Source: a virus. From it: a DNA stretch of 24,798 bases. The notes beneath the pieces are model-generated. The model saw only the letters and a program-made list of their open reading frames with translations, had not been told where the DNA came from and did no database searches. The DNA lies in IMG/VR virus record IMGVR_UViG_3300010392_000040, positions 1 to 24,798 of that record; one strand, 5' to 3'. Shown here piece after piece: positions 822 through 24,798 of the stretch; positions within the stretch are counted from its first letter, which is position 1, and each line of letters begins with the position of its first letter. The translations under genes were made by a program, and so were the position numbers.

Positions 822-1180
822 ACTTTCGTGTTCTTGATATAAATCACTGTATATGTCTCAAGACCGGGATCACTACCAGATCCCTTGCCGTTGGTAATCT
901 CTATTGAAATCGTATCATCGGCATCAACCCGGCCCTGACCAACATGAAAGCCTGCTGTGAAGGTGGGCTTTATAATCGCCAGAATAATATCGCCTACCTT
1001 TAATCCGGTTGCTGTGACTGTGACTTCAACATGATCATTAGCTGATAAGGCGGGAGGGTCCCACGGTATATCTAATCTACGGATATCAAGTACATAGCCC
1101 CTGACTAGATCAAACCACCTGTGACCGGCAATACTGGCCTCGACATCGGTTTCATGAAGTTGATGGAGGGGCTTTCTCAT
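818..1180 (-). CDS. Putative small virion protein, 120 aa
   Basis: A 120-residue protein with no recognised domain. The N-terminal 35 residues are His/Arg-rich; from about residue 45 on it is a beta-rich domain (HVEVTVTATGLKVGDIILAI, then TISIEITNGKG and a C-terminal ETYTVIYIKNTK strand), the style of small phage structural proteins. Its start ATGA overlaps the stop of the gp10-like gene and its stop overlaps the start of the 58-residue gene. Lying between the tail stabiliser and the ejection protein, it is probably a virion component, but that is inference from position and composition. Confidence 0.75.
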   Translation of the reverse strand: MRKPLHQLHETDVEASIAGHRWFDLVRGYVLDIRRLDIPWDPPALSANDHVEVTVTATGLKVGDIILAIIKPTFTAGFHVGQGRVDADDTISIEITNGKGSGSDPGLETYTVIYIKNTKV

Positions 1181-2808
1181 GACATTGCCTTGTCGGAAGT
1201 CTTGATATTGGCATATCCATCCAGCAGAACAGCGGGAACAGGATCAGATACGACAATCTCATAAACCCTTGATGAATCAGAATGTCCTACCTGTCTCCAA
1301 CGGAGTTTCTTATTCCTTTCTCCAATCATTCCCATTGACCGTGAATGGTAGTTAGACCATGCTCCGTTCTCGTCCCGCCACCTCAAGTGAAGCTGCGGGT
1401 CAGGCGTTGTAGCGTCGCCTACGCCCTCTTTTATGTCTATCCCTACGCCCTGCCAGTCCATGCCCTTTTCCTCGGCGTGGAAGACAACAGAGCGCCTTAT
1501 GCGGGTGATTAAATCTCCATTATCGGTGTATTCATCATAATCCAGGCAATAGATTCTGCCATTGGTGGGATCACCGACTAAATGCTTATTGTAGATAAAG
1601 GTATGACCCGTACTCCTGTGGTAGCCAAGGGTCTTACTTGACCATGTGTGCCACATCTTCTCGGTTGTATCAAAAACCAGTGTCTTCTGTGCTGAGGGGA
1701 AGGTAAAGGCCACAAACGTATGCTGATAGGCTTGGTAGGTAAATGAATAACAATCCGACAGATCGTCCATAGCCTCCAGTTCAGCAGCAATCTCTGGGGT
1801 TGAGATAATCTTTACCTGAAGACCCTGCACCATGACTATCATGCCGTTGCCTTCTTCGTTCTGAGACACCCAGAAGCCCAGTCCTGCCGTTTCTACGAGG
1901 GAATATGGGGCCACTGTACCCCACTCACTGAAACCAGCGGGTATAGGCTCATACGGGAAGTCAGCGGCACCTGAATTATGCCAGCCCTCTGCTGTTGTCG
2001 TGCCTACCAGCCAGAGAATTCTATCTACCTTCAAATGTCCCTGTAATTCATCGGGAGAGCGTTCTGCTGTGGCAAAATCAAGTGCGTCTATGTCCGTACC
2101 ATCGTAGGCTTTTGACTTGGTAAATTGACCCGAACTCGCGGGGTTATTCCAGATAAAGAATCCATCCATGAATTCAACATGGGTAGCACCGTCTGGAAAA
2201 GCGTCTGAGCCTATTTCGTATGTATCACCAGATGTCCAGATTGAATCAGCCGTTGTTAGCGTGTCTGAATCGGTAACTGCAGTAATCGTTGATTTTGTAC
2301 TGTCTGTAGTGTTGTAGACAATCATGCCTACCATGTTATCCGTGAAAGGGGTTAATACAGTATCTTCTAATGTTGTTGTTGCTGTCGCTCCATCTGAAGT
2401 ACCCGCAGCAAGCTGTGTATTTTGGTGAAATGTCTGGTATTCAGAGTTGTAAATATACCCGTTAGTACCGTCTACAATACATATCTGCTTACCGTTATTA
2501 GCGCCGTTATGGTCTAGTTTACAGATGCCTATCGAAGTATTGAGTGTTCCGCGTGAAATACCGTTTCCAGCAGCATCAACCTCGTAGAATTCATTTCCAG
2601 AAACAATGAAATAAAGTCCGTTATAGTTAATTTCGCCCCTTATTGGCCCTGTTCCTATGTCGGTAAATAAAGTCTCACCAGGGGTGGGATATAAAGCTAA
2701 CTTAGATTTTCCGCCCTGTGCTATGTGGGGGAACCAATTTTGCGTAAGCTGACTGCTGTTGTCGTCGTAACGATCGGCTCCTGATGGGCCTAGTAGTTGC
2801 AATTTCAT
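1177..2808 (-). CDS. P22 gp10-like tail accessory / packaged-DNA stabilisation protein
   Basis: A 543-residue protein. The N-terminus (LQLLGPSGADRYDDNSSQLT, NWFP, then GGKSKLALYPTPG) matches the gp10 family of P22-like phages, whose N-termini run into a conserved NWYPE and KxxLYGTPG pattern. In P22, gp10 binds beneath gp4 on the portal and helps plug the filled head. Repeated Tyr/Gly-rich blade-like segments (GLYFIVSGNEFYEVD, VEFMDGFFIWN) suggest the beta-propeller-like body known for the family. Residues about 139-201 look like an insertion: a Thr/Asp-rich beta domain sits between YIYNS and the expected DAFPDGATHVEFMDG segment. The same kind of insert is present in the gp4-like protein of this phage. 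P22 gp10 is about 470 residues, so the extra length fits an insert. Confidence 0.82.
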   Translation of the reverse strand: MKLQLLGPSGADRYDDNSSQLTQNWFPHIAQGGKSKLALYPTPGETLFTDIGTGPIRGEINYNGLYFIVSGNEFYEVDAAGNGISRGTLNTSIGICKLDHNGANNGKQICIVDGTNGYIYNSEYQTFHQNTQLAAGTSDGATATTTLEDTVLTPFTDNMVGMIVYNTTDSTKSTITAVTDSDTLTTADSIWTSGDTYEIGSDAFPDGATHVEFMDGFFIWNNPASSGQFTKSKAYDGTDIDALDFATAERSPDELQGHLKVDRILWLVGTTTAEGWHNSGAADFPYEPIPAGFSEWGTVAPYSLVETAGLGFWVSQNEEGNGMIVMVQGLQVKIISTPEIAAELEAMDDLSDCYSFTYQAYQHTFVAFTFPSAQKTLVFDTTEKMWHTWSSKTLGYHRSTGHTFIYNKHLVGDPTNGRIYCLDYDEYTDNGDLITRIRRSVVFHAEEKGMDWQGVGIDIKEGVGDATTPDPQLHLRWRDENGAWSNYHSRSMGMIGERNKKLRWRQVGHSDSSRVYEIVVSDPVPAVLLDGYANIKTSDKAMS

Positions 2809-3275: not shown

Positions 3276-3303
3276 TACATTAAAGGATATTAATAGTAAT
3301 CAT

Positions 3304-4599: not shown

Positions 4600-4601
4600 T
4601 A

Positions 4602-8706: not shown

Positions 8707-8715
8707 ATTTATTCT

Positions 8716-9787: not shown

Positions 9788-10280
9788 GTCTGTGTCTCGC
9801 TAACCTGGACGCATAGAAATCCATAATCCAGTTTGGTGTATTTAATATACGATTATCAGTTATTTCAAAATCATGCGTATTTCTTTCGGTCAAAACGGGT
9901 AAATCAGTTTCCAGCTTATGATTAACCATTTCACTCATTTCATCTATTTGCCTGTTTCTAATCGGCTCATCTATGAACAAATAAAAAGGGTCATATTTAT
10001 CAACAATATTAATCATATTCTTAAACTGTTGGTCAATAAGACCCTCTCTATTCCGTCTTTTGTGTGATTCGATAATTCTTACTGGATGCCTTAGTGGAAC
10101 ATAACAAGGATGCTTAATTTTGCATATCGTTGCGTCTGTTACATGAAAGCAGACTTTATATAACTTCTCATCACCTATATCTTCATTCCATGATAAGTGA
10201 TGAAAATCTTTAAATATCTCGTCCTTTATGAGATGGGTTCCAGAGTGCATTATCGAAGGGATACATACAATATCAGCCAA
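9780..10280 (-). CDS. Sulfotransferase-fold (P-loop) protein, 166 aa
   Basis: A 166-residue protein. Residues 8-18 (PSIMHSGTHLI) match the 5'-phosphosulfate-binding loop of sulfotransferases (PRSGTxxL) and residues 61-72 (VPLRHPVRIIES) match the 3'-phosphate-binding strand, with R64 and S72 in the expected places, followed by basic HKRR. At 166 residues it is much shorter than full sulfotransferases (250-300), but compact P-loop relatives of this kind occur in marine phages. Translation seems to start at TTG 10278-10280; the first ATG downstream would remove the P-loop. The gene follows the beta-helix gene by two bases and lies in the virion module, unusual for an enzyme. Whether it uses PAPS is not shown. 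Confidence 0.65.
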   Translation of the reverse strand: MADIVCIPSIMHSGTHLIKDEIFKDFHHLSWNEDIGDEKLYKVCFHVTDATICKIKHPCYVPLRHPVRIIESHKRRNREGLIDQQFKNMINIVDKYDPFYLFIDEPIRNRQIDEMSEMVNHKLETDLPVLTERNTHDFEITDNRILNTPNWIMDFYASRLARHRHG

Positions 10281-10282
10281 CT

Positions 10283-11227
10283 TTATGTTGACGCTGCGTG
10301 TACTAAACCAGCGGTTTCAGTCACCACATTAACTGCGTAGTTCTCAGACATGCCAAGGTTTGCATTAATGAAAAGACCCGTAATAGCCGAAGTCTCAAGT
10401 ACAGTGGCATGGTTTCTATAACAAGTACCTGAACAACCGGCAGCTAATGACACAGCACCGGCAGCCGCAGCCGTTGAGCTATTGTAGATATTGTTATCAT
10501 TTATCTGTATGCCTAACGCAGCAGTTGTCACGTTATAAATAGCCGCTGTAGAGAATTCACCCATAATGGTATTATTGGTGATTACTGAGTTATCGGCCAA
10601 TGTTTCAACACCAGCAGCCGCAACGTCTGTAACTGCTGTTCCAGCAAGTGATACTTCCTGATTAACAGTGTTATTGTTAAAATAGAAACCAGTAGCAGCA
10701 GTAGTCGTAACAATGGAAGTTAATAGCGAAGCCGCAGCAACGGTACTACCAAAGTAACAGTTTTCTACCGTGTAATTGGCACCTGAAACAATAACGCCAT
10801 CAACAACATTAGCGATTGATGATACAAGCCTGATGTTTGACGTTGACATATTACCAGCAGTAACCGTAAGTGTTGACCCAGTAGCGGAGAAAGTAAATGT
10901 TGGTGCTAAAGAACCCGCCCCTAAGCCGATAATAGCAACACCAGCTACATTCCATACTTCACCTCCCGCCGTCGCAATGGTTTCAGTGTAACCGGGCATA
11001 ACCATGATGATGTCACCACGACTTGCAATACATTTTGTTAGCGCACCAGTAATGGATGCAAATGGGCGACGATATGTACCATCATTACCATCGGAACCGC
11101 TGATACCTCCTTTAGCAAGTACCGATGAACTGTTCACCCAGAATACTTCACCCGGATGTGCTTGCTGTAGTGGGATTCCACGAATAGTTACACCACTCAT
11201 GAACCCGTTTGGATAATTAGAAGACAT
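10283..11227 (-). CDS. Beta-helix-like virion protein, 314 aa
   Basis: I choose ATG 11225-11227 (MSSNYPNGF) because a strong GGAGG lies six bases upstream; a TTG four codons earlier would start within that ribosome site. Residues about 45-75 contain GSDGNDGTYRRPFASITGAL, a motif typical of pectate-lyase-like right-handed beta-helix phage proteins ('GsDgn.GTs..pFaTi..Al'). The rest is repetitive Asn/Thr/Ala strands (SNIRLVSSIANVVDGVIVSG, ENCYFGSTV, ITNNTIMGEF, INDNNIYNSS) fitting helix turns. No clear catalytic Asp/Glu set is seen. It is the first gene after the coat terminator and probably a surface or tail component. Confidence 0.75.
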   Translation of the reverse strand: MSSNYPNGFMSGVTIRGIPLQQAHPGEVFWVNSSSVLAKGGISGSDGNDGTYRRPFASITGALTKCIASRGDIIMVMPGYTETIATAGGEVWNVAGVAIIGLGAGSLAPTFTFSATGSTLTVTAGNMSTSNIRLVSSIANVVDGVIVSGANYTVENCYFGSTVAAASLLTSIVTTTAATGFYFNNNTVNQEVSLAGTAVTDVAAAGVETLADNSVITNNTIMGEFSTAAIYNVTTAALGIQINDNNIYNSSTAAAAGAVSLAAGCSGTCYRNHATVLETSAITGLFINANLGMSENYAVNVVTETAGLVHAAST

Positions 11228-11249
11228 AATTCCCTCCAAAGGAATAAGT

Positions 11250-11270
11250 CGGTTAGATATGTACTAACCG
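11250..11270. repeat. Perfect 7-bp inverted repeat in the coat/beta-helix gap
   Basis: CGGTTAG at 11250-11256 and CTAACCG at 11264-11270 are separated by seven bases. In the leftward transcript it lies 6 bases downstream of the terminator's A/T tail and about 11 bases upstream of the GGAGG of the next gene. It could be a second, weak terminator, an mRNA-stabilising hairpin, or an operator; no run of T follows, so termination is the least likely. Confidence 0.6.
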
Positions 11271-11275
11271 AACAA

Positions 11276-11303
11276 GATAAAAAGAAAGGGGCCGAAGCCC
11301 CTT
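11276..11303 (-). terminator. Rho-independent terminator after the major capsid gene
   Basis: Read leftward, AAGGGGC-TTCG-GCCCCTT (11303-11286) is a 7-bp GC-rich stem with a very stable TTCG loop, followed by TTCTTTTTAT (11285-11276). It lies 22 bases past the capsid stop codon. It likely ends most capsid transcripts and lets the tail genes be made at lower level by read-through. Confidence 0.9.
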
Positions 11304-11325
11304 CCAAGTGACAGTCTATGCTGTC

Positions 11326-12234
11326 TTATGCACCAGTTGAAAGGTAGATTCCACGAGGATCTGCCCAACCGAATGACTCACGACCTTCAACCTTGAACTT
11401 GGCGTTCGAGGTATCGAAATCGTTATCAGCCGAAATGGAGTCAGCTTCACGTTCAAAGTGAATCATGCCATTCTCGACATCCGTCAACAGATACCATGCG
11501 TCGGCATTAGTCAGATAGTGATTGACTGAATAACCATCGGGGATGGTACGTGTGTTAGCAAGTGCGTTGGCATCGTTATCCGCAGTAGCAACACGAAGTG
11601 CGCTATTAAGGATACGTTCAGCCTCATACTTGTTAGCCGGTGGGACGATAAGCTTGCGTGGAGTGGCCGCGATCAGAAGACCACGATCATCCATCCAAGC
11701 TGCCATGTCAATTTCAGCCTGCTCCAAAGCAGCCTCGGACAAGTCCAAGTGTGCTGTTGGAATGTTAGACCAAGTACCACCCGCTTTATTTGGATGAGAG
11801 GCACTACCCAGAACAACACCATCGCCGCCGGTATATCCAGAGGTGGTGGCACGGTTAAGGACGTTAGCCGCTACAGTCTCACGGGTAATTCGCTTTGAAC
11901 GACCCAGTGCTTTAGCACGGTCTTCAGCGAGTTGCATGTACAGATTGTCAGCGATTGCATTCTTGGTAATGATAAAACCAAGCTTGTAGTTCAGGTTGGT
12001 AAACCTGGTAACAAAACCCTGTTGGGCATTATCGTATGGTACGGAGCCACCTTCCGGTACTGCTGCTGCCATACCGAACCATGAAGAACCTACGATTTCT
12101 TCATAAGCCCGTTTGGACGTACGAGTTTCGTAAATTTCCTTACACTGCTCAGAACGACGGTTATAGCTTGCGCCATACCATGTTTGTACGCCCGGTTCGA
12201 GCGATTTGGCAAAACTGCCAGTATTAATAGGCAT
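11326..12234 (-). CDS. Major capsid protein (HK97-fold, Mu gpT-like group)
   Basis: A 302-residue protein. Its signature blocks are KRAYEEIVG followed by FGMAAAVPEGGSVPYDNAQQ (residues 41-71), the GFIITKNAIADNLY block (86-99), the GGDG/ASHPNKAGG loop (136-153), EAALEQ...MDDRGL (167-186) with KLIVPP (194-199), and a C-terminal SFGWADPRGIY. These match the coat family widespread in podoviruses with P22-like tails. The ribosome site is AGGAG, seven bases before ATG. It forms the shell with the scaffold two genes upstream, and is followed by the TTCG terminator. Length and order (scaffold, AT-hook protein, decoration, coat) are ordinary for the group. Confidence 0.9.
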   Translation of the reverse strand: MPINTGSFAKSLEPGVQTWYGASYNRRSEQCKEIYETRTSKRAYEEIVGSSWFGMAAAVPEGGSVPYDNAQQGFVTRFTNLNYKLGFIITKNAIADNLYMQLAEDRAKALGRSKRITRETVAANVLNRATTSGYTGGDGVVLGSASHPNKAGGTWSNIPTAHLDLSEAALEQAEIDMAAWMDDRGLLIAATPRKLIVPPANKYEAERILNSALRVATADNDANALANTRTIPDGYSVNHYLTNADAWYLLTDVENGMIHFEREADSISADNDFDTSNAKFKVEGRESFGWADPRGIYLSTGA

Positions 12235-12244
12235 AATATTACTC

Positions 12245-12814
12245 CTATGCTATTGGGGCAGCGTACTGCTTATCGACGAAAGTAACCCAAACACGCTTGT
12301 TGGCTACTCCGGTGGCTTGATCATAACTGGGGCCAATTGGAGCCTCAACAACCATTACGTCACCATCATTTGTAAGCGCGTCACCATCAATTTCCATCTG
12401 CGAACGTCCAGTAGTGGAATTGCCATCAGTCGCAAGCAAGTCGTAAGCCTCGCCAACTACGATGTCTTCACTGTCATCGAACTGCGCTTCAAAAAGTACA
12501 TCTGCTGGGGGTACATAGAAAATTCGATAATCTGCTTCAACATCAGCAGAAGTATCAAAAAATCCTTTCTCAAGATTAGCTGGGTCGAATGGAACTTCAC
12601 CGCCTTCCATAGTTACAGTACCAACACCAACACATACACCAAGACACTCACCCGCTACTGCCATTTGAACAGCAGCACCGGACGAAAGTGAAATCGGGTC
12701 GCCAATGAAAATATCGTCAGCACCGGGCAGTATTGCCCTTACCATCGAAGATATTGGTGCGCCCGATAAAGTCTTAACGGCTCTGAACCCGTTAGGACGA
12801 TCTACGTTAGCCAT
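12245..12814 (-). CDS. Head decoration-like structural protein, 189 aa
   Basis: A 189-residue protein beginning MANVDRPNGFRAVKTLSGAP, the N-terminal form ('aNvnaPfGFrPvrhldG') of a common virion protein next to coat genes. It continues with FIGDPISLSSG, a VGVGTVTMEGG strand, an FYVPPADVLFEAQ segment and SQMEIDG near the C-terminus. It is thought to be a capsid-associated or decoration protein; its function is not settled. GAGG precedes the ATG by eight bases. It lies ten bases before the coat gene, so both are made together. Confidence 0.82.
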   Translation of the reverse strand: MANVDRPNGFRAVKTLSGAPISSMVRAILPGADDIFIGDPISLSSGAAVQMAVAGECLGVCVGVGTVTMEGGEVPFDPANLEKGFFDTSADVEADYRIFYVPPADVLFEAQFDDSEDIVVGEAYDLLATDGNSTTGRSQMEIDGDALTNDGDVMVVEAPIGPSYDQATGVANKRVWVTFVDKQYAAPIA

Positions 12815-12834
12815 TTTATTTTCCTCAAAAAAAG

Positions 12835-13317
12835 TTAGTCTTCAACAGCCTTGGCAAGTGAATTTGTATTCTCAACTTCGCCATAGCGGCCATCATCAGT
12901 TTTAAGCTTGCGGAATATATCTCTCTCTGTCTTGTCGATTATTTCTGCTTTTAGCTTTTTGTCTTCTTCGTGGAACTCTCTTGGCTGGCGCATTAATACG
13001 CCCTTCTTGCCCGTTCTTTTATCCACTATCACGGAATGGGCTGAACCTGTTTTCACCGCGTTTCCTCCAAGAAACTCAACATCCTGGCTCTGGTCTATTT
13101 CATAACCATAGCTTTTCAGTTCTTCTATTCTGCCGCCTTCATCGTTGGCAACGCGATAAACATAATTTTCATGATCAAAATTACCTGAAAGCGCCATTGG
13201 TCCCGCAAGCCGACTATTGGCCGAACTCCTGCGTACTCGACCTGACCTGTTAGAAGGATCAGGTTTCTTTGCTGGTCTGCCGCGCTTCTTTGGGGCTACT
13301 TTTGTTTCTTCTGTCAT
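12835..13317 (-). CDS. Head-region protein with AT-hook-like N-terminus, 160 aa
   Basis: A 160-residue protein between scaffold and decoration genes. Residues 10-18 (KKRGRPAKK) form an AT-hook-like motif, the minor-groove binder, in a very basic first 35 residues (net strongly positive, GRVRRSS). Residues 45-95 are a beta-rich segment with DVEFLGGNAVKTGSAHSVIV, and the C-terminal 50 residues are charged and helical (EEDKKLKAEIIDKTERDIFRKL). AGAGGA lies about seven bases upstream of the start. The family is unknown to me. It could bind DNA inside the head or act in packaging; that is inference from the AT-hook alone. Confidence 0.72.
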   Translation of the reverse strand: MTEETKVAPKKRGRPAKKPDPSNRSGRVRRSSANSRLAGPMALSGNFDHENYVYRVANDEGGRIEELKSYGYEIDQSQDVEFLGGNAVKTGSAHSVIVDKRTGKKGVLMRQPREFHEEDKKLKAEIIDKTERDIFRKLKTDDGRYGEVENTNSLAKAVED

Positions 13318-13328
13318 CGTCTAATCCT

Positions 13329-14273
13329 CTAAAATATGTATGCTTTCAGATAATCTTCTTCAGTCATATCTGGTATTGATTCAATTACTTCTCTTGCAAC
13401 AGCCCGTTGGTCTTCAGGTAAGTCCTGCAGGGTCTTGCTCTTTTTCTGCTTGCTGACCACAGTGCGGTTTTGAGTGCTTGCTACCCGTGTCTGTCGTCTG
13501 GGCTTTTCTTGTTCGGGGAATTCCTGCTTAATCCCGTTTAATACGTGATTAAAGGTTTCTTCTGGAGGGGGGAGATGTCCATATCTAGCCTGATACTCTG
13601 TAACGTAAGTCACGCCAATCTCATCAGCTCGTGTGGTCATTTCGTAGTCCTTTCGATACCACGTATTTTTCTTTACGAAGTCGGCCTTGGCTTCCGTGTA
13701 ATCATCGGCTAATTGCTCGTCTTGGTCGTCTTCTTCAGTGACGTTTGATTCAATCTGACTGTCGATCTTTTTCAGTTCTGCTACGTCATCTGAATCCAAG
13801 TATTCAGCATTCAATAACTTGTCTTTTGCTGCCTGTAATTCGTTATTAAGTCGTTTCTTGTCATCAAGTGACTTTTGGACAATCTGCTTGCTTTGTTCGG
13901 CAAGGGATTGAATCTTTTTGTTCTGTTCGTCGATATCTCCGCGCATCAGGCTTATCTTTTTGAACAGGGGTGCGCGTTCAAGGAACTCTATGGCTGAGAT
14001 TTTATGCCCAAACTTATCCTCACCATCCTCCTTCCAACCGCGCTTTGCTGCCTCTTCCTTGGCCTGATCTTCAGTTAGTTTATTCGCTAAGGCTATGGGT
14101 TGATCGCTGTTTAGGGCTTCGTCAAGATCGAAGGTTTCTTCGACTTCTTCCTCTTGCCCATCTCCTTGAATTGTTTCTTCAACCACTTCTTCAGCTTCTT
14201 CGAGGTTACTATCATCCGGTTCTCCGAGTGATTGCTGAATGTTTTGTTCGAGTGCTTCTAAATCTATTGACAT
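13329..14273 (-). CDS. Capsid scaffolding protein
   Basis: A 314-residue, very acidic, mostly helical protein with no Cys. Residues 20-60 are Glu/Asp-rich; residues 60-80 hold EDQAKEEAAKRGWKEDG, and residues 110-195 form heptad-like coiled coil (GDIDEQNKKIQSLAEQSKQ, RLNNELQAAKDK). The last 60 residues turn basic (PRRQTRV, SKQKKSK), then end with helical DMTEEDYLKAYIF. In P22-type scaffolds the basic C-terminal helix-turn-helix binds the coat protein. Position two genes before the coat gene, length and charge pattern all fit. It starts three bases after the co-chaperonin's stop. Confidence 0.82.
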   Translation of the reverse strand: MSIDLEALEQNIQQSLGEPDDSNLEEAEEVVEETIQGDGQEEEVEETFDLDEALNSDQPIALANKLTEDQAKEEAAKRGWKEDGEDKFGHKISAIEFLERAPLFKKISLMRGDIDEQNKKIQSLAEQSKQIVQKSLDDKKRLNNELQAAKDKLLNAEYLDSDDVAELKKIDSQIESNVTEEDDQDEQLADDYTEAKADFVKKNTWYRKDYEMTTRADEIGVTYVTEYQARYGHLPPPEETFNHVLNGIKQEFPEQEKPRRQTRVASTQNRTVVSKQKKSKTLQDLPEDQRAVAREVIESIPDMTEEDYLKAYIF

Positions 14274-14276
14274 CTG

Positions 14277-14636
14277 TTAATCCTCTAATACACCTAAAAT
14301 ATTCTCATCTGCTAACAAAAAGTAAACTTGGGGCTTGTCATCTACATAATCGTTCTCATCTAGATAGCGGTCTGCTACGTGTCGTTTGAAGTAAACATGG
14401 TCGCCTACCTCTGCCCACTTATCGCCACCAAAAGCATCCCACGCGGTCTCACCAGCGGCTACCAGAGTGCCTTTGACCCTGGCTACCTCTTCACGACTTA
14501 CCTCATCCTTATTGGAATGTACGATAATTCCGCCCTCTGAAACCTTTTCAACGGGGTCTGGTTTGACAAGGACATAATGCCCGCATGGTCTTAGTGGGAG
14601 TTTGTCAATCTTCAATAACTTGCTCGGTTGGTTCAT
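14277..14636 (-). CDS. groES: GroES-like co-chaperonin
   Basis: A 119-residue protein with the Cpn10 layout: the first strand LRPCGHYVLVKPDP (residues 15-28), the mobile loop with GGIIV (35-39, the hydrophobic I-I-V tripeptide that docks on GroEL), then EVARVKGTLVAAG, VGDHVYFKRH with the roof segment, and the final ILGVLED strand. Bacterial GroES is about 97 residues, so it is slightly longer with an N-terminal extension. Phage versions (T4 gp31, others) let host GroEL fold large capsid proteins. The gene sits directly before scaffold and coat genes, supporting that role. The start overlaps the upstream gene by 32 bases; no alternative ATG lies downstream before the core. Confidence 0.88.
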   Translation of the reverse strand: MNQPSKLLKIDKLPLRPCGHYVLVKPDPVEKVSEGGIIVHSNKDEVSREEVARVKGTLVAAGETAWDAFGGDKWAEVGDHVYFKRHVADRYLDENDYVDDKPQVYFLLADENILGVLED

Positions 14637-14895
14637 CTTCTGTCATTTCCTCTAGTGATAATATTACGTCAGCATAAGCCTGTGCTTTGCCGAGTGCTTC
14701 TGAATTCTTCTGAATGGTTTCTTCTACTGATTCGCCGGTAAAGTCTCCGTTTACCCAGTTGTCTTTGAGGTCTTCTAATCTCTCAATCAATTGGGCTTTG
14801 TGATACTTACCGGTTCGCTGGTTTAACCAGCCTCTTGCTTGTTCTGGGGTGGGTTCTCTGGGTTCTGTTTTTGGTCTTTGAATAACTATCTTAAT
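14605..14895 (-). CDS. 96-aa protein, apparently initiated at ATT (or 61 aa from TTG)
   Basis: The frame is open from a TAG just before 14899 down to TAA/TAG near 14605, with no ATG or GTG near its 5' end. AGGAG (14902-14906) stands six bases before ATT at 14893-14895, which overlaps the previous gene's TAA as ATTAA. The inferred product begins IKIVIQRPKTEPREPTPEQ and has ARGWLNQRTGKYHKAQ before the acidic helical ending. A TTG at 14788-14790 would give 61 residues but has no ribosome site and would discard a coding-looking N-terminus. The family is unknown; an acidic helical protein before the co-chaperonin. ATT is a known though rare start codon (infC); a lost ATG or a sequence error are alternatives. 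Confidence 0.6.
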   Translation of the reverse strand: MKIVIQRPKTEPREPTPEQARGWLNQRTGKYHKAQLIERLEDLKDNWVNGDFTGESVEETIQKNSEALGKAQAYADVILSLEEMTEDEPTEQVIED

Positions 14896-15154
14896 AATGA
14901 TCTCCTAATATTACCCTTAGAAGTAGTAATATTTCTTCGTCGTCTTGTTTTCTTCTGTCTGTTTTCTGGATAATTCCTTCGTATGTTGTGGAGCTTCCGC
15001 CGCCTATTTCCTTATCGTACTGAAAGAATATGAAAAATCCTGGACCAACAATATTTCCTTTGCTATTTCCTTCATGCTGATGACAACGCGATAACCCATC
15101 AGCAGTAACACACGTTGTATCAGCGGTTATAAACCTCGCATCTGCCGTGGTCAT
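14891..15154 (-). CDS. Small virion-region protein with TAD repeats, 87 aa
   Basis: An 87-residue protein. It starts with a short repeat of TAD (MTTADARFITADTTCVTADG), a feature I recognise from small head-tail proteins of marine-type phages, then a Gly/Phe-rich middle (GNIVGPGFFIFFQYDKEIGG) and a charged C-terminus. It is joined to the upstream gene by a TAATG overlap. Function unknown; a minor virion component is a reasonable inference from neighbours. Confidence 0.65.
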   Translation of the reverse strand: MTTADARFITADTTCVTADGLSRCHQHEGNSKGNIVGPGFFIFFQYDKEIGGGSSTTYEGIIQKTDRRKQDDEEILLLLRVILGDHY

Positions 15155-15432
15155 TAATCAACTTCAGTTCCAAGGTCTGTTATGTCGGTATTCAATGCCT
15201 GTTCAGCATCTACTTTTAATTGTTCGATAGCGTCCTGTTCTGTCTTAATGTTGTCCATAATGTAATCGTTGATTGCAGCAACCTTTAACACTCGAATAGC
15301 AAATTGCTGGGGTGTCTCTCCAGCCTGCTTCTTACGCTGATACCAGATTTCAAAGTACGGTCTTAAATTGACATTAATAGTGATTTCAGTTGTATATGGA
15401 TTTGCAGAGGGTTCTAGTCTTGGTAATGCCAT
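15154..15432 (-). CDS. Small helical protein in the portal-head interval, 92 aa
   Basis: A 92-residue protein. N-terminal beta pair (NPYTTEITINVNLRPYFEIW) followed by helices (GETPQQFAIRVLKVAAINDYIM, EQDAIEQLKVDAEQAL). This length and pattern recurs in phage head-completion or fibre-adaptor gene clusters, but I cannot name it. The ATG follows the upstream stop by three bases and has no clear ribosome site, so translation probably depends on coupling. Downstream gene is joined by TAATG. Confidence 0.7.
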   Translation of the reverse strand: MALPRLEPSANPYTTEITINVNLRPYFEIWYQRKKQAGETPQQFAIRVLKVAAINDYIMDNIKTEQDAIEQLKVDAEQALNTDITDLGTEVD

Positions 15433-15435
15433 AAT

Positions 15436-16272
15436 TTATGCCGTTGTTGATAACATGATGTGATACACAGTACCGTTTATGTCAATGGGTATGGTGTTAT
15501 TGACTGTAGCTGTTGATGCAACAGCGGTAATTCCAGACCCTTCAAGCGTCATATTCGTACCGTCATAGTGCATTCTTACATCCTGGCCTGCACCAAAAGC
15601 TATATCTGCTCCTAAATCATCACCATTAAGCAAAATGCCATAAGCATTTGTTGCATCCTGCTTATCTATCCGTATTCCAGTAGCATTTACTGTATTTGAG
15701 ATACTACCAACATCCTCAACAGTAATGCCTATGGATGTTGTAACGGTACTGCTTGTAGTGGCCTTCACAACAATACCTTGCATATTTGCTACTGTTGCCC
15801 CAAAGCCCTGTGCTTTTGGCTCAACAGTCAATCCTGAAAGACCAAGAAGATCAGATGCAGATGATGATGATGCCTGGATTATTGCACCTGATAGTATTCC
15901 AAAGTCCAACAAAGAAGGAGTGGCGGTATATAACGCATTAAGCCTGAATGCAGCTAAAGTACCGCCTATAGAGGTCGTACCGCTTAACTCAGGCTCAAAT
16001 AACTGGGCATTCTTCGCTGCTCCATCATCAGTTATAGTTTCCTTTAGGTGCAGGATCTCATTCGTCTTTATAGACGCACCCGATCCTATTCCTACATGGC
16101 CGGTGAATAACTGGTTTGTACCGTCTACCGAACCATCTGCTTGTAAGGCGGTATCAGACGAAAAAGAATATAACTCGGTAAAGTTATCGTTACACTTATC
16201 AAAAGCTACGTCTAAAGGATCACCCTGCCCATCGTTCGGGCTTGAACCTATATCTATTACTTGTTTAGCCAT
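15436..16272 (-). CDS. Fibre/neck-type virion protein, 278 aa
   Basis: I choose ATG 16270-16272, where ATGA overlaps the previous gene's stop, giving MAKQVIDIGSSPNDGQGDPL; a longer frame adds eight unrelated residues. The first 36 residues (IDIGSSPNDGQGDPLDVAFDKCNDNFTELY) match the conserved N-terminus of many phage fibre and neck proteins ('iniGtsaNdGtGDpLRtAfdKiNdNFtELY'). The rest is repetitive beta with GIGSGASIKTNEIL, LLGLSGLTVEPKAQG, GIRIDKQDATNAYGILLNG and a final DGTNMTLEGSG, resembling the stacked-strand bodies of trimeric fibres. It is likely a fibre, or surface collar protein. Confidence 0.75.
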   Translation of the reverse strand: MAKQVIDIGSSPNDGQGDPLDVAFDKCNDNFTELYSFSSDTALQADGSVDGTNQLFTGHVGIGSGASIKTNEILHLKETITDDGAAKNAQLFEPELSGTTSIGGTLAAFRLNALYTATPSLLDFGILSGAIIQASSSSASDLLGLSGLTVEPKAQGFGATVANMQGIVVKATTSSTVTTSIGITVEDVGSISNTVNATGIRIDKQDATNAYGILLNGDDLGADIAFGAGQDVRMHYDGTNMTLEGSGITAVASTATVNNTIPIDINGTVYHIMLSTTA

Positions 16273-17009
16273 CAGCCGTCGGTATGCTCGTACCACGAAG
16301 CAGATATATTTACTGCTGTGCTTGTTGCACCAGAGATATTCTCAAAAATGTAACCTGTGTTTGGCGCTAGAATCCATTCTGATACCCCTCTGTTTTCTCC
16401 GCCAATTGACCTGCCAGCCCCCATGCCCTCAGACCATATAATAGTTCCACCCGAATAGACTAAAACACCACCTGTTAGATTATCTCCGCCTACTCTTACT
16501 GCTTGTGCCGCCGTTACTTTTGCGGAATCACGCCTATGGTTAATGGGAACATATGCAGCACCACCTGATGTAAATGTAATTCCTTCTGTTATTACAATTG
16601 TATGCGCCCCACTACCTATGTGGTTCAAAACAAGATGGAGTCTCTTTTGGGGAGAAGTTACTGCAGGCGTGTTTATATATAACTGCACCGTATCAGTATT
16701 GGCCGCCGCTCCATCTGAGGCAACCATCGAAAAAGCATCACCCTCATGGATTTCATGGTGGGCAATATCAATAACTAGCGGAGCCTTAAATAACGGATCA
16801 AACTCCTGCTCTCTGGTCGAATCGTTTGGGTCTTGCAGAGTAACTGCGCCGCCAATAGGAAGCGGATTTGTAGGACTTACCGGCGTCTGAGAGCCGTCTG
16901 ATCCATAAGAAATCTTGTATATCGGGTAGTGAACGTCATTAATGTCATCTGTGGCTACATCTAATGCAGAATGATCAGGAGCTGGGTTTACCTTAATATT
17001 ATCTGCCAT
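16272..17009 (-). CDS. Virion structural protein, 245 aa
   Basis: A 245-residue protein. Near the N-terminus, VHYPIYKISYGSDGS followed by VSPTNPLPIGG is a pattern common in phage structural proteins of unknown role. The middle is beta-rich (HEIHEGDAFSMVASDGAA, LHLVLNHIGSGAHTIVITEG), and the end has GENRGVSEWILAPNTGYIF and ISASWYEH. The HEIHEGDAF block recurs in phage 'hypothetical' virion proteins as I recall. It overlaps by one base at both ends with neighbours, between the portal-linked coiled coil and the fibre-like protein. Confidence 0.72.
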   Translation of the reverse strand: MADNIKVNPAPDHSALDVATDDINDVHYPIYKISYGSDGSQTPVSPTNPLPIGGAVTLQDPNDSTREQEFDPLFKAPLVIDIAHHEIHEGDAFSMVASDGAAANTDTVQLYINTPAVTSPQKRLHLVLNHIGSGAHTIVITEGITFTSGGAAYVPINHRRDSAKVTAAQAVRVGGDNLTGGVLVYSGGTIIWSEGMGAGRSIGGENRGVSEWILAPNTGYIFENISGATSTAVNISASWYEHTDG

Positions 17010-17587
17010 TATTCATCGGGTGCTATTGGGTGGATTTCTTCTATTAAGCCTTCTTTATCGCGAGTAACACGGTAGGACAGCATAACAAGCGGTGGATGCT
17101 CGAATTCTATTTCCTTGACTGAATCAGTCAATTCCTTGATCGAGGTCTTCAGGCCATCAATATTGGCTGAAATCGTCTTGGTTATCTCTTGAGTATGAGG
17201 TTTTAAGTCAAGCGTCTGAGTTTCAAGCTTAATACCTGAAATACTGTTTATCAGCGTATTAAGTGAGGCTTCTATTCTTTGTGCATTCTCATTGAGAGAT
17301 TTGGATATCTTGTCACCGTCCTCAGAAGGTGGTATCTCAAGCGCGATTTGGGCAATTTCGTCTTTTAACGAAAGTAATAATTTATCAGTCTCGCGTGAAG
17401 ACTCGGTTATTGAACTGGCTATTCCTTCATTCGACTCTACGACTTCTTTCGTCAGTTTTTCCTGACTAGCAAGTGATTGCCTTTTATTCTCGGACTTTCG
17501 TTCTTTTCTTTCCCTTATTTGTTCTTTCTTCTCGTTCCTTGCTTTCGCATAGTCTGGATTGATGACGTTAGGCTTGATTTGGTACAT
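17009..17587 (-). CDS. Portal-linked coiled-coil protein, 192 aa
   Basis: A 192-residue protein whose start lies 20 bases inside the portal gene. The first 45 residues are strongly basic (EKKEQIRERKERKSENKRQ) and likely helical, and residues 45-165 are long heptad-rich coiled coil with Ser/Ile/Leu spacing. The C-terminus is a short beta segment (PPLVMLSYRVTRDKEGLIEE). It fits a head-tail connector helper or an internal virion rod, but I recognise no family. Expression is coupled to the portal by the overlap. Confidence 0.72.
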   Translation of the reverse strand: MYQIKPNVINPDYAKARNEKKEQIRERKERKSENKRQSLASQEKLTKEVVESNEGIASSITESSRETDKLLLSLKDEIAQIALEIPPSEDGDKISKSLNENAQRIEASLNTLINSISGIKLETQTLDLKPHTQEITKTISANIDGLKTSIKELTDSVKEIEFEHPPLVMLSYRVTRDKEGLIEEIHPIAPDE

Positions 17588-19529
17588 TCTGAGCCTGTGC
17601 GTTCTGTGCCTGAGTGGCTTTCATTCTGTCTATGTTGAATTTAGCCATTTCCCTCAAGTTATCCAGCTGTTGTGAGTATTCCTTGTACTGGATACCGGCT
17701 TCTTCACCCTCGGCTTTTGCTAAGTTGAGCATCGCTTGAGAAGTGATTAACATCTCGTTATTAATCCAGTCTTGTTCTGCACTCATGACTTTAAGAATCT
17801 GGTCTGCTCGCTTGAGGGTCATTTCCTGCTCAAACTTAACAACTTCAAATGGAGGCTGCTGTTCGGGCATTTCCATAATCTGCTCGATTCCTGGCTGTTC
17901 CTCGGCCTCCAGAATGCGCTGCATGGCGACTTTCGGATTGACTAGCCCTGTGGGTATCTTCTGCATCAAAGCGTTCGCCTTGGCAAGTTTCTGTTGTTCT
18001 GAGGTGTAGTTTGAGTCTGCTGCTGGCTTGATATTTACAGATTGAATATCAAAGTCTACCCTGAACAAGATTTCGCCTATCTTTTCTTTCTCTTCTTCCT
18101 TCAGTCCATCAATAACATTCAAATACTGTTGTGGCTGTAAATGAACGGAATCAAGATAGTAAATGCGTTGGAATTCGTTATTTGCTGACCTGTGATTTCG
18201 CTTGTAAATACCCGCGAATATCCTTTTCCCTTCTTCCTGAACTGCAATCGTCGTCGTTGCTTTCTGGTTCTGGCCTGGATTCTCACCTACTTGTGAGTCC
18301 AAAGTACTCGATATCCGTTGGGCAGCGGTCATCATCATGCCCAAAAGACTAAATAAGACTTGAGAAGGCTGCATTTGGGGGAAATGAACGACATTACGCG
18401 CCAAATCCTGTCCAGAAGTCGGTACAGAGGTGTATTCGCCCATCCTTCGCTTAATAACACCGCCCTTTATCTTAATCCCTCTACCTAAAAGACCACCTCC
18501 CGTAACTGAAAGGGTTCCGGCATCGTTTAACTGGTTAATGCCCGTATTTATCTGCTTGTTTAGAGGCCCAAGAAGCTGACCGAAGCCCAAATCCATGATT
18601 GAGCCATCGGGATTAGGGATAAATCCGTACTTTGTAAAGAACTGCTCTTGATTGACGTTAAGTATTTTCTCATCATCTGCCATAATGTCAGCTTCAGAGT
18701 AACCAACAACAATCTTGAGGACGTTTCTGGACTCTTTCTCAACCGTACAGATGTAGGGTTCCATCAAGCCATCGTTATCGAGGTCATACCATGTATGTTG
18801 TTCGAGCATGGTATAAGGTGTTGAGTCGTCAATCTCAGATACGTGCTGACTTTCTGGCTTATCTGAATCAGTCTTGGTTGGCTTTCCAAGTTCTACATCA
18901 AGATAGAATCCCTGGAGCTGAAGTGATTTCAGCTCATTGGCGGTCATGTCGAAGAAGTGGGTCTTTCTAAATGACTTCTCGATAGACTTCGCATTATTAC
19001 ACATGACGAATTCATTAGGAGAGAGCATTTCGGAGGCATTTCTGTCTAAGCTCTCATCTCTGTAGGTCTTTTTGTACATCTGACCCAGCAAAGGCTGGAC
19101 AATAAAGCCCCTGTCCATTTCCTCTTCCCATTCTGGGATTCCTTCGAGAAGTTCCCACGACATATACTTGGAAACCCGTATAGCAGAGTTCTGCTTCTCT
19201 CCAGTAGGATCGCTTCCGATAATCCTCGACTTCACTATATCTACAGGAGGGATTAAAGCGGGATACATTCTGGAGTTATACTGAATAATCGCCTCAGTTA
19301 TAACGGGCATCATCACATTAGAAGCATTGGGCCAAGGGAATGACTTCTGTTTGGCGTTCTGAAGGGCTAAGTCCATAGCATCCTTCATCTTCTCTTCCCA
19401 CGGCGCACGATCACTCCTGTCAGCGTCGTATCCGTCTACGACCTGCCCACCAATCTTCGCTAAAGTGTCCTTATCCAGCGATTCAGCAATATTATCGCTG
19501 TCTATGAATTTTATTAAATCACTTAGCAT
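17568..19529 (-). CDS. Portal protein (P22-like type)
   Basis: A 653-residue protein directly after TerL and a tiny peptide. Residues 30-60 hold the N-terminal acidic/Trp helix, followed by FPWPNASNVMMPV and YNSRMYPALIPP; the middle has GFIPNPDGSIMDLGFGQLLGPLN and the C-terminal portion KANALMQKIPTGLVNPK, then a Gln/Ala-rich helical barrel (AQAQNAQAQ). These blocks are those of the long podoviral portal family. It forms the dodecameric ring at the packaging vertex that receives TerL and later the gp4-like adaptor. Length is typical (P22 gp1 is 725). It overlaps the upstream peptide by 11 bases and the coiled-coil gene by 20. Confidence 0.88.
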   Translation of the reverse strand: MLSDLIKFIDSDNIAESLDKDTLAKIGGQVVDGYDADRSDRAPWEEKMKDAMDLALQNAKQKSFPWPNASNVMMPVITEAIIQYNSRMYPALIPPVDIVKSRIIGSDPTGEKQNSAIRVSKYMSWELLEGIPEWEEEMDRGFIVQPLLGQMYKKTYRDESLDRNASEMLSPNEFVMCNNAKSIEKSFRKTHFFDMTANELKSLQLQGFYLDVELGKPTKTDSDKPESQHVSEIDDSTPYTMLEQHTWYDLDNDGLMEPYICTVEKESRNVLKIVVGYSEADIMADDEKILNVNQEQFFTKYGFIPNPDGSIMDLGFGQLLGPLNKQINTGINQLNDAGTLSVTGGGLLGRGIKIKGGVIKRRMGEYTSVPTSGQDLARNVVHFPQMQPSQVLFSLLGMMMTAAQRISSTLDSQVGENPGQNQKATTTIAVQEEGKRIFAGIYKRNHRSANNEFQRIYYLDSVHLQPQQYLNVIDGLKEEEKEKIGEILFRVDFDIQSVNIKPAADSNYTSEQQKLAKANALMQKIPTGLVNPKVAMQRILEAEEQPGIEQIMEMPEQQPPFEVVKFEQEMTLKRADQILKVMSAEQDWINNEMLITSQAMLNLAKAEGEEAGIQYKEYSQQLDNLREMAKFNIDRMKATQAQNAQAQNVPNQA

Positions 19530-19647
19530 GTGGTTCCTTCGTGGGTTTTTTCTTCTTTTTGAAGTTAATAAGGTCGTAGTTACTGCGGTATTCTTTGGAA
19601 TTAGGACGGGATTTGATCTTATCGCCGGTTATATCGTTTCTAGCCAT
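19519..19647 (-). CDS. Lys-rich 42-aa peptide between terL and portal
   Basis: A 42-residue frame (starts MARNDITGDKIKSRPNSKEY, ending in a Lys-run FKKKKKPTKEPHAK). Its start overlaps the end of terL by 8 bases and its stop overlaps the portal start by 11 (ATGCTAAGTGA). No family known to me. Tight overlaps and full coverage of the gap between two essential genes argue that it is translated. Confidence 0.65.
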   Translation of the reverse strand: MARNDITGDKIKSRPNSKEYRSNYDLINFKKKKKPTKEPHAK

Positions 19648-21190
19648 ATCCCGTTACTGAGTCTTGTGGGCCGTAATCTAAGTCTTCTTCGTATTCGTAG
19701 TCTTCAATGTCGGACTCCTTTACAGCATGTCGTACCATTGCACAGATATACCTTATCACCGCTATAAGATCGTCGTCCCTATCAACTATCTTGGCTTTTC
19801 CTTCTGCAGTCTTCGTTGTGTGGAAGTTCCTCAATTCCTCCCAGACTTCGGGAAGGGTATTGAAAATCCTTAACCTTCTATCTGCAAAGCGAGAATTCAT
19901 GTCTACAAGTTGAGGTTCGATCTTAATACCACCCTTACCCTCTGGCTTCTCTGGGTCTGGGTTGGTTACGTGGGTATGGAACATATTCACCCCGTACCTT
20001 CGATACTCTTGAGCTACCGTTCCACCACCGGGTACTGTCTTCTCGCCGTCGTGGGGATACATCATCGGTATCCACTGGGGTCTTGAGATTACTCTCGCAG
20101 CTACGTCTGGAATCTTGTTAGCAAAGACCTTCAAACAGTCATAGATGTAGATTGTGTCGTTTTCTTCATCATAAGCCGCCCAGCCTGCTGCGCTTGGATG
20201 AGACTTCTCAGATATTCCACCAAAGTCTAAAGCGGCGAGTCTCGGCCAGTGATCTGGAATTTCGATAGGCTCACACATCACCTGATCTTTCGGATAACTA
20301 AAGATAAGTCCTGACCCCTGCATAGGTTCGCCAAGGACGCGCATCTCGATTTCGTGGTCTAACATACCCTTTAAGGCATCTATGACCTTTTCTTCCGTCA
20401 GATGGCCGAGATTGCCTTTAACACCTTTTACCTGCCTGAACTCAAGAACTTTCCCATTCTTCAGTCTAAGGTCGAAAGTCTCACCCGCTGCATCCATCCA
20501 TGTAGCATGGTGCATTGACCAGTTCTCCATAATAGAGATTAAAACAGCGGTGCGTCCGTTCTCAGGGGTGAAGGTCATGTATATCGAACCGCCATGATCT
20601 ACGATAGATCGGGTAGCCTGACCCATTATGTCTTCAGGGGGTTCCTCGTCCAGCCAGACGATATCTGAGGGAAAGCCCATCCACGCCTCTTTACCCATAT
20701 CATAGGCAAGAAGAGTAATTTTGGAATCTCCGTCATAAACACCATCAGTATGGTGCTTTACATAGACGTGGTATTTGGCATCTGGAACGCCAGGCTTTCT
20801 TACGGCCTTTCCTATATCTTGTTTTGGAACGAAGCCAGTACCCCACATTCTCTCGTCTGCAGGATCACCAAAGAGTTCTCTCTGAACCAGATCACGGGTC
20901 TTTTCGTTGTTCTTACCACCCGCCAGTCCTAATACTGGATGATCATAGCGTCTACCCTCCCACCAGTCGGGGTACTTTCCGGTAAGGTGATAGCCCATCT
21001 CAGCACCACCGGATAAAGTCTTTCCAGGGCGATTACCTGCGATATTCCCCCGAAATTTGGAGGTATCGTTATGGAACTTTAATTGAAACGGATAGGGAGA
21101 GTAGAATTCTAATCGGTTTTCTTTGGCGTACTTAATCTGCTTCTGCTGGATTTCTATCCTCTCCAGTTTAAGACGCTCTATATCATTCAT
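19640..21190 (-). CDS. terL: Terminase large subunit (packaging ATPase-nuclease)
   Basis: A 516-residue protein with both terminase domains. ATPase: Walker A GNRPGKT at 52-58, Walker B IVWLDEEP at 177-184 with the catalytic Glu, and the coupling motif TFTPENG at 206-212. Nuclease: an RNase H-like fold with D322 in ALDFGG and a DDD cluster at 472-474 in DRDDDLIAVIRY. This is of the type found in P22/T7-like podoviruses. It docks on the portal and translocates, then cuts, the DNA. The start overlaps the stop of the 62-residue gene (ATGAATGA). No clear small terminase is seen upstream; one of the small genes may stand in. Confidence 0.93.
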   Translation of the reverse strand: MNDIERLKLERIEIQQKQIKYAKENRLEFYSPYPFQLKFHNDTSKFRGNIAGNRPGKTLSGGAEMGYHLTGKYPDWWEGRRYDHPVLGLAGGKNNEKTRDLVQRELFGDPADERMWGTGFVPKQDIGKAVRKPGVPDAKYHVYVKHHTDGVYDGDSKITLLAYDMGKEAWMGFPSDIVWLDEEPPEDIMGQATRSIVDHGGSIYMTFTPENGRTAVLISIMENWSMHHATWMDAAGETFDLRLKNGKVLEFRQVKGVKGNLGHLTEEKVIDALKGMLDHEIEMRVLGEPMQGSGLIFSYPKDQVMCEPIEIPDHWPRLAALDFGGISEKSHPSAAGWAAYDEENDTIYIYDCLKVFANKIPDVAARVISRPQWIPMMYPHDGEKTVPGGGTVAQEYRRYGVNMFHTHVTNPDPEKPEGKGGIKIEPQLVDMNSRFADRRLRIFNTLPEVWEELRNFHTTKTAEGKAKIVDRDDDLIAVIRYICAMVRHAVKESDIEDYEYEEDLDYGPQDSVTGYG

Positions 21191-23796: not shown

Positions 23797-24195
23797 TCAC
23801 ACAACCTCCCTACAAGCCACCTTGATCTTGTCTGCTAGCCCCTTAAAACCTTCAGCAATCGCTAATAATGTAGGCTTGACCTTTGGATCAATTTCCTTAC
23901 TTCCCAATAAATGACTGTCTAAAATATTGTCAATCTCCTCATTAAGTGAATACTGGAAAACAACCCCATCCTCACTTGGCCCGAGCCTGAAATGATATTG
24001 AATCATCGTAGGCTCACAACCATCACCCCATTCAAAAGGCAAAGATATATAAGAATCTCCATCCCTTAAACAACACTCCATCGCCTCCTGCGCCATCTCT
24101 GTAACCAACTTCTCCAATACCTCAGTATTGATCAGATCACAGAAATCTATGTCCTGACCTAACTTCCAATCGCTAATATCTATCTTCCCACTCAT
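23797..24195 (-). CDS. 132-aa acidic hypothetical protein
   Basis: A 132-residue, acidic, mixed alpha/beta protein (EKLVTEMAQEAMECCLRDGD, then ISLPFEWGDGCEPTMIQYHF, EIDNILDSHLLG, and helical AIAEGFKGLADKIKVA). I recognise no family. The start overlaps the upstream stop in ATGA form. Confidence 0.72.
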   Translation of the reverse strand: MSGKIDISDWKLGQDIDFCDLINTEVLEKLVTEMAQEAMECCLRDGDSYISLPFEWGDGCEPTMIQYHFRLGPSEDGVVFQYSLNEEIDNILDSHLLGSKEIDPKVKPTLLAIAEGFKGLADKIKVACREVV

Positions 24196-24479
24196 ATCTC
24201 CACCTCCCTCTTTCCCTTCTTGAGATAGTCACCTTCCCTAGATTCCCTTTCAATATTAAGCAACTTCATCAAAGCGTCTACAGTTCTTTCAAGGTCTTTT
24301 ACCTGAGTAACTAAATCCTTATGCGTCGGATAAGGATTAGAATACCAACTAATCCCGATACCCACATTTTTTGTAATTAGCCATTGGTCTTCCAGTTGCT
24401 TGACTAAACGACTGTAATTATCCCCTAACCCAATAACGCCAAGCTCACGTAACTCTTCTCTCAAAGCCTTATCTTTCAT
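24192..24479 (-). CDS. 95-aa coiled-coil protein, first gene of leftward operon
   Basis: The first gene after the control region. Residues 1-35 and 52-95 are helical, with leucine heptads in KDLERTVDALMKLLNIERES. GGGAG lies seven bases before the ATG. Function unknown. As leader gene it is likely the first one made, so an early role is possible by inference. Confidence 0.72.
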   Translation of the reverse strand: MKDKALREELRELGVIGLGDNYSRLVKQLEDQWLITKNVGIGISWYSNPYPTHKDLVTQVKDLERTVDALMKLLNIERESREGDYLKKGKREVEI

Positions 24480-24499
24480 CTAATTTCTCCCAATATTCG

Positions 24500-24534
24500 G
24501 TTAACTTCTATACTGCTCACACAGATAGTTAACT
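24500..24534. promoter_or_regulatory. Paired GTTAACT motifs, possible operator
   Basis: GTTAACT (a palindrome GTTAAC with an extra T) at 24500-24506 and 24528-24534, 28 bases centre to centre, between the promoter candidate and the first gene. The right copy overlaps the proposed -10. This spacing suits a repressor pair such as the 51-residue helix-turn-helix protein. Binding is not shown. Confidence 0.3.
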
Positions 24535-24555
24535 CTACATGGAAGTATTAGTCAA
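24527..24555 (-). promoter_or_regulatory. Leftward promoter candidate for the operon
   Basis: TTGACT (24555-24550, five of six -35 matches) is followed after 17 bases by TTAACT (24532-24527), a poor -10. It is 50-75 bases from the first gene. The weak -10, overlapping a GTTAACT motif, makes this only a guess. Confidence 0.3.
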
Positions 24556-24614
24556 GATATATCCTTATTTAGAGGCTATATTAGAGATTGGTTATGAAGG
24601 GATAACTCTGAAAA

Positions 24615-24637
24615 ATGTAGGTAGGTGATATCTACAT
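24615..24637. repeat. 6-bp inverted repeat followed by TTTTT on the minus strand
   Basis: ATGTAG (24615-24620) and CTACAT (24632-24637), with an 11-base loop; leftward it is followed by TTTT (24614-24611 region). AT-rich and weak, it might act as an attenuator-like hairpin upstream of the operon, or be chance. Confidence 0.35.
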
Positions 24638-24724
24638 ACACCACGCTTTCCCAGGTTTTCCCCCTGCCGGGTGCCTCCCCTGGATTGTCCTAATATACTG
24701 ATTTGCATAGGATTAAGCATGGAT

Positions 24725-24740
24725 TGTTTCACGTGGAACA
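24725..24740. other. Perfect parS (ParB-binding) site
   Basis: TGTTTCACGTGGAACA. Its complement TGTTCCACGTGAAACA is the canonical chromosomal parS of B. subtilis and the sequence recognised by ParB proteins across bacteria. ParB loads here as a CTP-dependent clamp and spreads along DNA for ParA- and SMC-driven segregation. No parA or parB gene lies in the window. See the finding on this site. Confidence 0.85.
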
Positions 24741-24751
24741 CGCTGCAGCAC

Positions 24752-24760
24752 TGTTATAAT
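24752..24760 (+). promoter_or_regulatory. Rightward extended -10 promoter (TGTTATAAT)
   Basis: TATAAT at 24755-24760 is preceded by TGT, a perfect extended -10 (TGnTATAAT), 12 bases past parS on the plus strand. No good -35 is needed for such promoters and none is seen at normal spacing. A transcript would begin near 24767 and leave the window, implying a divergent gene to the right. Confidence 0.5.
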
Positions 24761-24798
24761 GCTTGGTATGTACTGATATAGGCCATATAACGCTGATA

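Follow-up and report, generated by a model that had tools for sequence, protein, structure and literature searches.

A chromosomal-type parS site upstream of the packaging block of a phage contig, and its possible use as a loading site for the host's ParB

The window, by which we mean the whole stretch of viral DNA analysed here, comes from IMG/VR as a linear record 24,798 bases long (43.6% GC), and its main gene row runs leftward from a first ORF that begins at 24479. Genes for terminase, portal, capsid and the head closure protein Hc3 lie on this same single contig as a chromosomal-type parS site near the contig end. The features that the argument draws on are as follows:

1177..2808, minus strand: head closure protein Hc3 (phrog_578, E 4.6e-97)
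2545..2560, minus strand: parS-like sequence with 2 mismatches, inside the Hc3 gene (motif scan)
11326..12234, minus strand: major capsid protein (phrog_371 and Phage_capsid_4)
17568..19529, minus strand: portal (head-to-tail connecting protein), homologous to annotated head-to-tail connecting/portal proteins, without a PHROG or Pfam match of its own
19640..21190, minus strand: terminase large subunit, which starts 3.5 kb to the left of parS (phrog_2; Pfam families Terminase_6N and Terminase_6C above cut-off)
24192..24479, minus strand: 95-aa ORF, the nearest gene on the left side of parS (nothing in PHROG at 0.001; in Pfam a match below cut-off only)
24480..24798, no strand: stretch holding the site, between the point where the leftward gene row begins and the end of the contig (39.8% GC over 319 bp, no ORF of 60 aa or more)
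24725..24740, plus strand: parS site TGTTTCACGTGGAACA, a near-palindrome (exact match; the identical 16-mer occurs four times in phi29)
24752..24760, plus strand: extended -10-like element TGTTATAAT, 11 bases right of the site (read by eye from the sequence)

The site is located 58 bp from the contig end and ~245 bp past the leftward ORF row that continues from the terminase. The longest ORF in 24480-24798 has 49 aa and covers the site; the stretch, this ORF included, is probably non-coding. An earlier note on this DNA had placed the site beside an outward promoter, which gained no support: only the -10-like TGTTATAAT is present, and a sigma-70 consensus scan of 24200-24798 returned 0 promoters and did not recognise it. 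If TGTTATAAT were an extended -10, it would put parS over a -35 region. Elsewhere in the structural row, the ORF at 9125-9739 has a weak HNH endonuclease match under the Pfam cut-off.

The earlier note had also read a perfect 16-bp chromosomal-type parS on a phage contig and had called a chance match very unlikely, and here it was right on each point. A motif scan of the whole window gives an exact 16/16 match, TGTTTCACGTGGAACA, to chromosomal parS, the tag by which bacteria segregate their own chromosomes. The match lies at 24725-24740 on the plus strand, upstream of the packaging and structural block, and there is no other perfect match anywhere in the window. This 16-bp near-palindrome has its CACGTG core intact, fits known chromosomal parS sites and is the reverse complement of TGTTCCACGTGAAACA, the optimal parS of B. 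subtilis (PMC8299390, in part). Counting both strands, the exact matches expected in the window number 6.5e-6 under a second-order Markov model or 1.2e-5 under a uniform one. At up to 3 mismatches the window holds 3 matches, namely 24725-24740 on both strands and the place at 2545-2560, compared with a mean of 0.22 in shuffled sequence, where only 1 of 100 shuffles reached 3 or more. The place inside the Hc3 gene is probably chance, while the parS observation itself is real.

More of the phage can be seen in a second IMG/VR record, G002 (41,647 bases), which comes from the same phage: at a shared offset of 21,512, the stretches compared agree at 1488/1488, 3016/3016 and 10,484/10,493 bases. 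G002 reaches further left and ends at window position 20135, short of parS, bringing the part of the phage seen to ~46 kb. Matches to ParB_N (PF02195), ParA and tyrosine integrase (PF00589) are absent from both the window and G002. A terminase query in IMG/VR found G002 and a 79% relative (L003), neither of which extends to parS; window 23797-24195 as a query found no relative, and neither did the portal in genome_contigs. The contig could not be carried rightward, where the earlier note had placed a possible parA/parB: the 27-mer right of the site is without a match in viral_contigs, and no second contig runs over the site. The protein at the left end of G002, used as a query, returned G002 itself and three distant loci. 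Ten G002 proteins were searched. NinG, a DNA repair/recombinase family and a Mom-like protein are among their matches, and there is weak similarity to an antiterminator-Q-like family and to a replication initiation protein. The match to the Mom-like DNA modification protein family, at G002 7318-7881 (L185), hints at modified phage DNA. No tRNA genes were found in L185, L186 or L001.

The same 16-mer is frequent in viral records. An exact scan of IMG/VR (viral_contigs) for TGTTTCACGTGGAACA returned at least 120 stretches (loci L063-L182, of which L092 and L172 are one contig), whereas the 16-mer read in reverse gave 1 stretch and one with an unchanged CACGTG core between scrambled arms gave 6. 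The counts of these composition-matched controls are complete, and by comparison with them few of the exact matches are chance. The view in the earlier note that such a site is unusual among phages finds no support, given these stretches and the four copies in phi29. Part of the excess may be host DNA within viral records. Among the matches listed, a phrog_2 terminase match is found in 20/46 records and a match to the window's portal in 11/46 (the 46 comprise the 43 IMG/VR records with the site that reach 30 kb or more, and in addition QDWS535, HTVC027P and phi29), which speaks for a viral origin of the site-bearing records.

Among the 134 sites in the matches listed, 127 have 100 bases on both sides, and blastn sorts the flanks into 117 clusters. 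The immediately adjoining bases show a preference among the matches listed, L106 excluded, for A at -1, seen in 57%, and for T at +16, seen in 50%; the window site, with T at -1 and C at +16, lacks these preferred flanks. With a mechanical ORF caller, 30/134 sites among the matches listed fall between called ORFs (7% of random points do), 31/134 in ORFs under 80 aa (8% of random points) and 62/134 in ORFs of 150 aa or more (70% of random points). A homologous terminase, portal or capsid is encoded in 24/120 loci among the matches listed, for which we claim no enrichment. A terminase match with E below 1e-8 occurs in 3 of the 120 loci listed, the short stretches limiting the view; parS lies 3.9 (L088), 2.5 (L094) and 1.0 kb (L123) upstream of the terminase, and L088 and L094 share flanks. 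A rule that the sites lie near the portal was dropped as too weak, the proximity in the 9/43 records with a portal match, among the matches listed, giving a Fisher p of 0.05.

Partition proteins are scarce in these records. Among the matches listed, ParB_N is over cut-off in 4 of the 43 site-bearing records of at least 30 kb (a fifth is below cut-off) and lacking at that level in 39/43, ParA is found in 1/43, and tyrosine integrase is over cut-off in 4/43. The four ParB-bearing records have their sites ~9.5 to 115 kb away from the ParB match. A parS without ParB is thus the rule in the 43-record set, though the records may be fragments.

Several of the site-bearing records carry more than one copy. 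The record G021 (116,662 bases; loci L106/L222, the latter of 64% GC) has 23 exact parS in one orientation and one palindromic copy within 91700-112396. Read by eye along the minus strand, several of these copies come after a stop and ahead of the start that follows, and the caller puts 9/11 in L106 inside ORFs. A ParA match in G021 lies at 90915-91454, 0.25 kb from the first parS copy, and ParB_N is below cut-off, so that this element may need the host's ParB. G009, a large phage record of 169,219 bases and 36% GC (L078/L223/L224), holds 8 exact and 5 one-mismatch parS near both record ends (1-18169 and 168792-169061); it has terminase and integrase matches and no ParB_N match, and no exact terminal repeat was found in it. 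Two further records, G017 (L092/L172) and G005 (L069), each have 2 exact and 1 one-mismatch parS within 2 kb; in G017 a homologue of the window's portal follows 0.2-1.9 kb downstream of them.

Among relatives of the window phage the site is patchy. Eighteen records have a homologous portal, and 12 of them were searched for parS at up to 2 mismatches: 3/12 have a match, where 0.35 would be expected by chance (0.015 at up to 1 mismatch), and 9/12 have none, including MW202796.1, the first-listed portal relative. Only one of the three stands out, the Alcaligenes phage vB_Af_QDWS535 (OK172329.1), whose portal is homologous to the window's with 39% identity over 85%. Its single parS, at 47934-47949, is the perfect palindrome TGTTCCACGTGGAACA, one base from the window 16-mer. 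It is located between a leftward early block and a rightward terminase/portal block, where they diverge, and the annotated terminase comes 2.2 kb downstream once the circular join of the record is crossed. QDWS535 gave no ParB_N, ParA or integrase match; its site falls within an annotated 54-codon hypothetical ORF and other small ORFs and has no parS annotation. Looked for in related phages, as the earlier note had suggested, the site has a one-base variant between the early and late blocks of QDWS535 and no match within 2 mismatches in nine portal relatives.

The two other matches were set aside. The 2-mismatch match of HTVC027P at 16412-16427 was rejected as an intergenic relative site, as an unannotated 123-aa ORF with no Pfam match spans it; we treat it as chance because it is inside an ORF and 0.35 two-mismatch matches are expected in 12 records. 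The 2-mismatch site of MW202785.1 is inside a tail-fibre gene and was likewise taken as chance. Six further records, terminase or portal relatives, have no parS within 2 mismatches; at up to 3 mismatches one of the six has a match, and one has a match to the reversed control. In 60 IMG/VR terminase loci, parS at up to 2 mismatches occurs in two (L044 and L030) and the controls in 0. L044 has a 1-mismatch site ~0.5 kb upstream of the terminase ORF, by eye at the start of a short ORF; the 2-mismatch site of L030 has a broken core and was taken as chance.

We consider it rather likely that the window site is a loading site for the host's ParB, that is, a host-type centromere tag. The exact site, the excess in viral records, the scarcity of ParB and ParA in them, QDWS535, the loci with parS upstream of a terminase, and the precedents of phi29, SGI1 and P. 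aeruginosa count for this reading. Counting against it are the single contig, the position 58 bp from its end, the patchy relatives, the many in-gene sites, the lack of preferred flanks and the weak portal proximity (Fisher p 0.05). The earlier note had left a choice between a ParABS of the phage's own and recruitment of the host's ParB; recruitment is favoured, given no ParB_N or ParA in the window or G002 and 39/43 listed records without ParB_N over cut-off.

In the mechanism that we propose, the host's chromosomal ParB would bind the 16-mer, close as a CTP clamp and slide onto neighbouring phage DNA. ParB is described as an adaptor to ParA and Smc that spreads from parS as a clamp (PMC8494293, in part). 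The phage genome would then be handled like a bacterial origin region, in that ParA would keep it on the nucleoid or SMC, loaded by ParB, would fold it. The likely gain is that a non-integrated phage genome would be retained and positioned in a slow, dormant or dividing cell, and where ParB spreads over the adjoining DNA, the packaging block may also be expressed more weakly. We favour retention and positioning over folding or transcription control as the gain. From what is observed, namely the sequence, its place, the excess and the ParB/ParA scarcity in viral records and the identical 16-mer of phi29, we infer ParB binding in this phage's host and every effect downstream of it.

An alternative, which we regard as unlikely, is that we are dealing with a phage-plasmid whose own ParAB lies to the right of the window, the site being the centromere of that system. 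The sequence between window position 24798 and the left end of G002 lies outside both records; in the one orientation compared, the final 500 bases of the window share no word of 11 or more bases with the opening 2000 of G002. ParB_N is over cut-off in 4/43 comparable records among the matches listed, and the ParA match of G021 is 0.25 kb from its parS array. However, the ~46 kb seen of the phage has no ParB_N, ParA or tyrosine integrase, and the four ParB-bearing records have their sites ~9.5 to 115 kb from the ParB match.

It is also unlikely, in our estimate, that ParB acts here mainly as a transcription factor, sitting over the -35 of an outward promoter and gating phage genes by host-cell state. 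The location between a gene start and the contig end, with TGTTATAAT 11 bases to the right, would suit this role, as would the QDWS535 site, which is also where early and late blocks diverge. In P. aeruginosa, repression of neighbouring genes has been linked to two intergenic sites, parS3 and parS4, but the same source has loss of Spo0J without effect on B. subtilis genes next to parS (PMC7022226, in part). Further against this role are the 0 promoters of the sigma-70 scan and the 62/134 viral sites, among the matches listed, in ORFs of 150 aa or more.

That the palindrome is an operator of a phage regulator with a coincidental resemblance to parS is quite improbable: a near-palindromic 16-mer in a likely control region invites the idea, which nevertheless demands a 16/16 coincidence (~1e-5 per window) and leaves unexplained the viral-record excess of the same 16-mer with unlike flanks.

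Equally, it is very improbable that the contig runs into host chromosome at this end or that a chimaeric join to phage DNA created it, as might be supposed of a site 58 bp from the end of one contig. The site is only ~245 bp past the leftward ORF row running on from the terminase. An exact search of genome_contigs for the 24-mer beside it came back empty; weak as this test is, it lends no support to host chromosome near oriC at this end, which the earlier note had raised; 24300-24798 is without similarity to the plasmid collection, and its lack of similarity to the phage collection is neutral. A pure chance match can practically be dismissed, for although someone familiar with many motifs is bound to find a few of them somewhere, 6.5e-6 to 1.2e-5 are expected per window, and the parS 16-mer has at least 120 stretches where the controls have 1 and 6.

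A broader proposal can be made, for which we judge the chances to be about even: that host-centromere mimicry is a general phage strategy reaching far beyond phi29 and sporulation, and that many unrelated phages, terminase/portal-type ones included, carry host parS without ParB, so that the host's ParB, together with ParA and SMC, retains, positions or folds the genome of the phage. The kind of site is already known from phi29; what is new is that another lineage is involved, that one exact site stands in front of the packaging block, and that such sites appear to be spread broadly across viral records. Among the matches listed, the open-licence literature gave no survey of chromosomal parS across phages, and the available parts of PMC10286716, PMC10197239 and PMC12704722 contain no case of a host parS on a phage. 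If host ParB does load widely on phage genomes, segregation and condensin loading would join phage-host conflict, and the persistence of non-integrated phage genomes in cells that are slow or dividing would have an explanation at the level of DNA. The idea is directly testable, as the tag is a 16-mer, isolates carrying parS exist (phi29, QDWS535) and the host factor is known.

Besides QDWS535, three known systems come close to the window site. The chromosomal parS of bacteria (e.g. parS1-10 of P. aeruginosa) belong to the same 16-bp palindrome class, and the perfect sites of P. aeruginosa, TGTTCCACGTGGAACA (PMC4368675, in part), are one base apart from TGTTTCACGTGGAACA; unlike them, the window site is on a viral contig, with no bacterial oriC seen nearby. 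The stability of SGI1 depends on parS copies served by the ParB of its helper IncC plasmid (PMC10954446, in part). Like the window phage as we propose it, SGI1 is a mobile element that carries the centromere of a partner replicon and uses the partner's ParB, although it pairs a plasmid ParABS with an integrative element, whereas the phage would use the system of the host chromosome.

The precedent is phi29, a 19-kb Bacillus phage whose parS 16-mer is identical to that of the window phage. It reportedly has five parS sites, and its record (NC_011048) holds four exact copies of the 16-mer, at 10445, 15903, 17243 and 18760, and one 3-mismatch copy, with ParA and integrase matches absent. Three of the copies are inside the connector, endolysin and gp17 genes and one directly follows the terminase stop codon; if these copies work, an in-gene position would be no argument against function. 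The host Spo0J (ParB) traps phi29 DNA in spores (PMC9437464, in part, citing Meijer 2005). Phi29 thus combines several sites with a spore-trapping use, whereas the window phage is of another lineage, with one exact site seen, upstream of its terminase/portal block.
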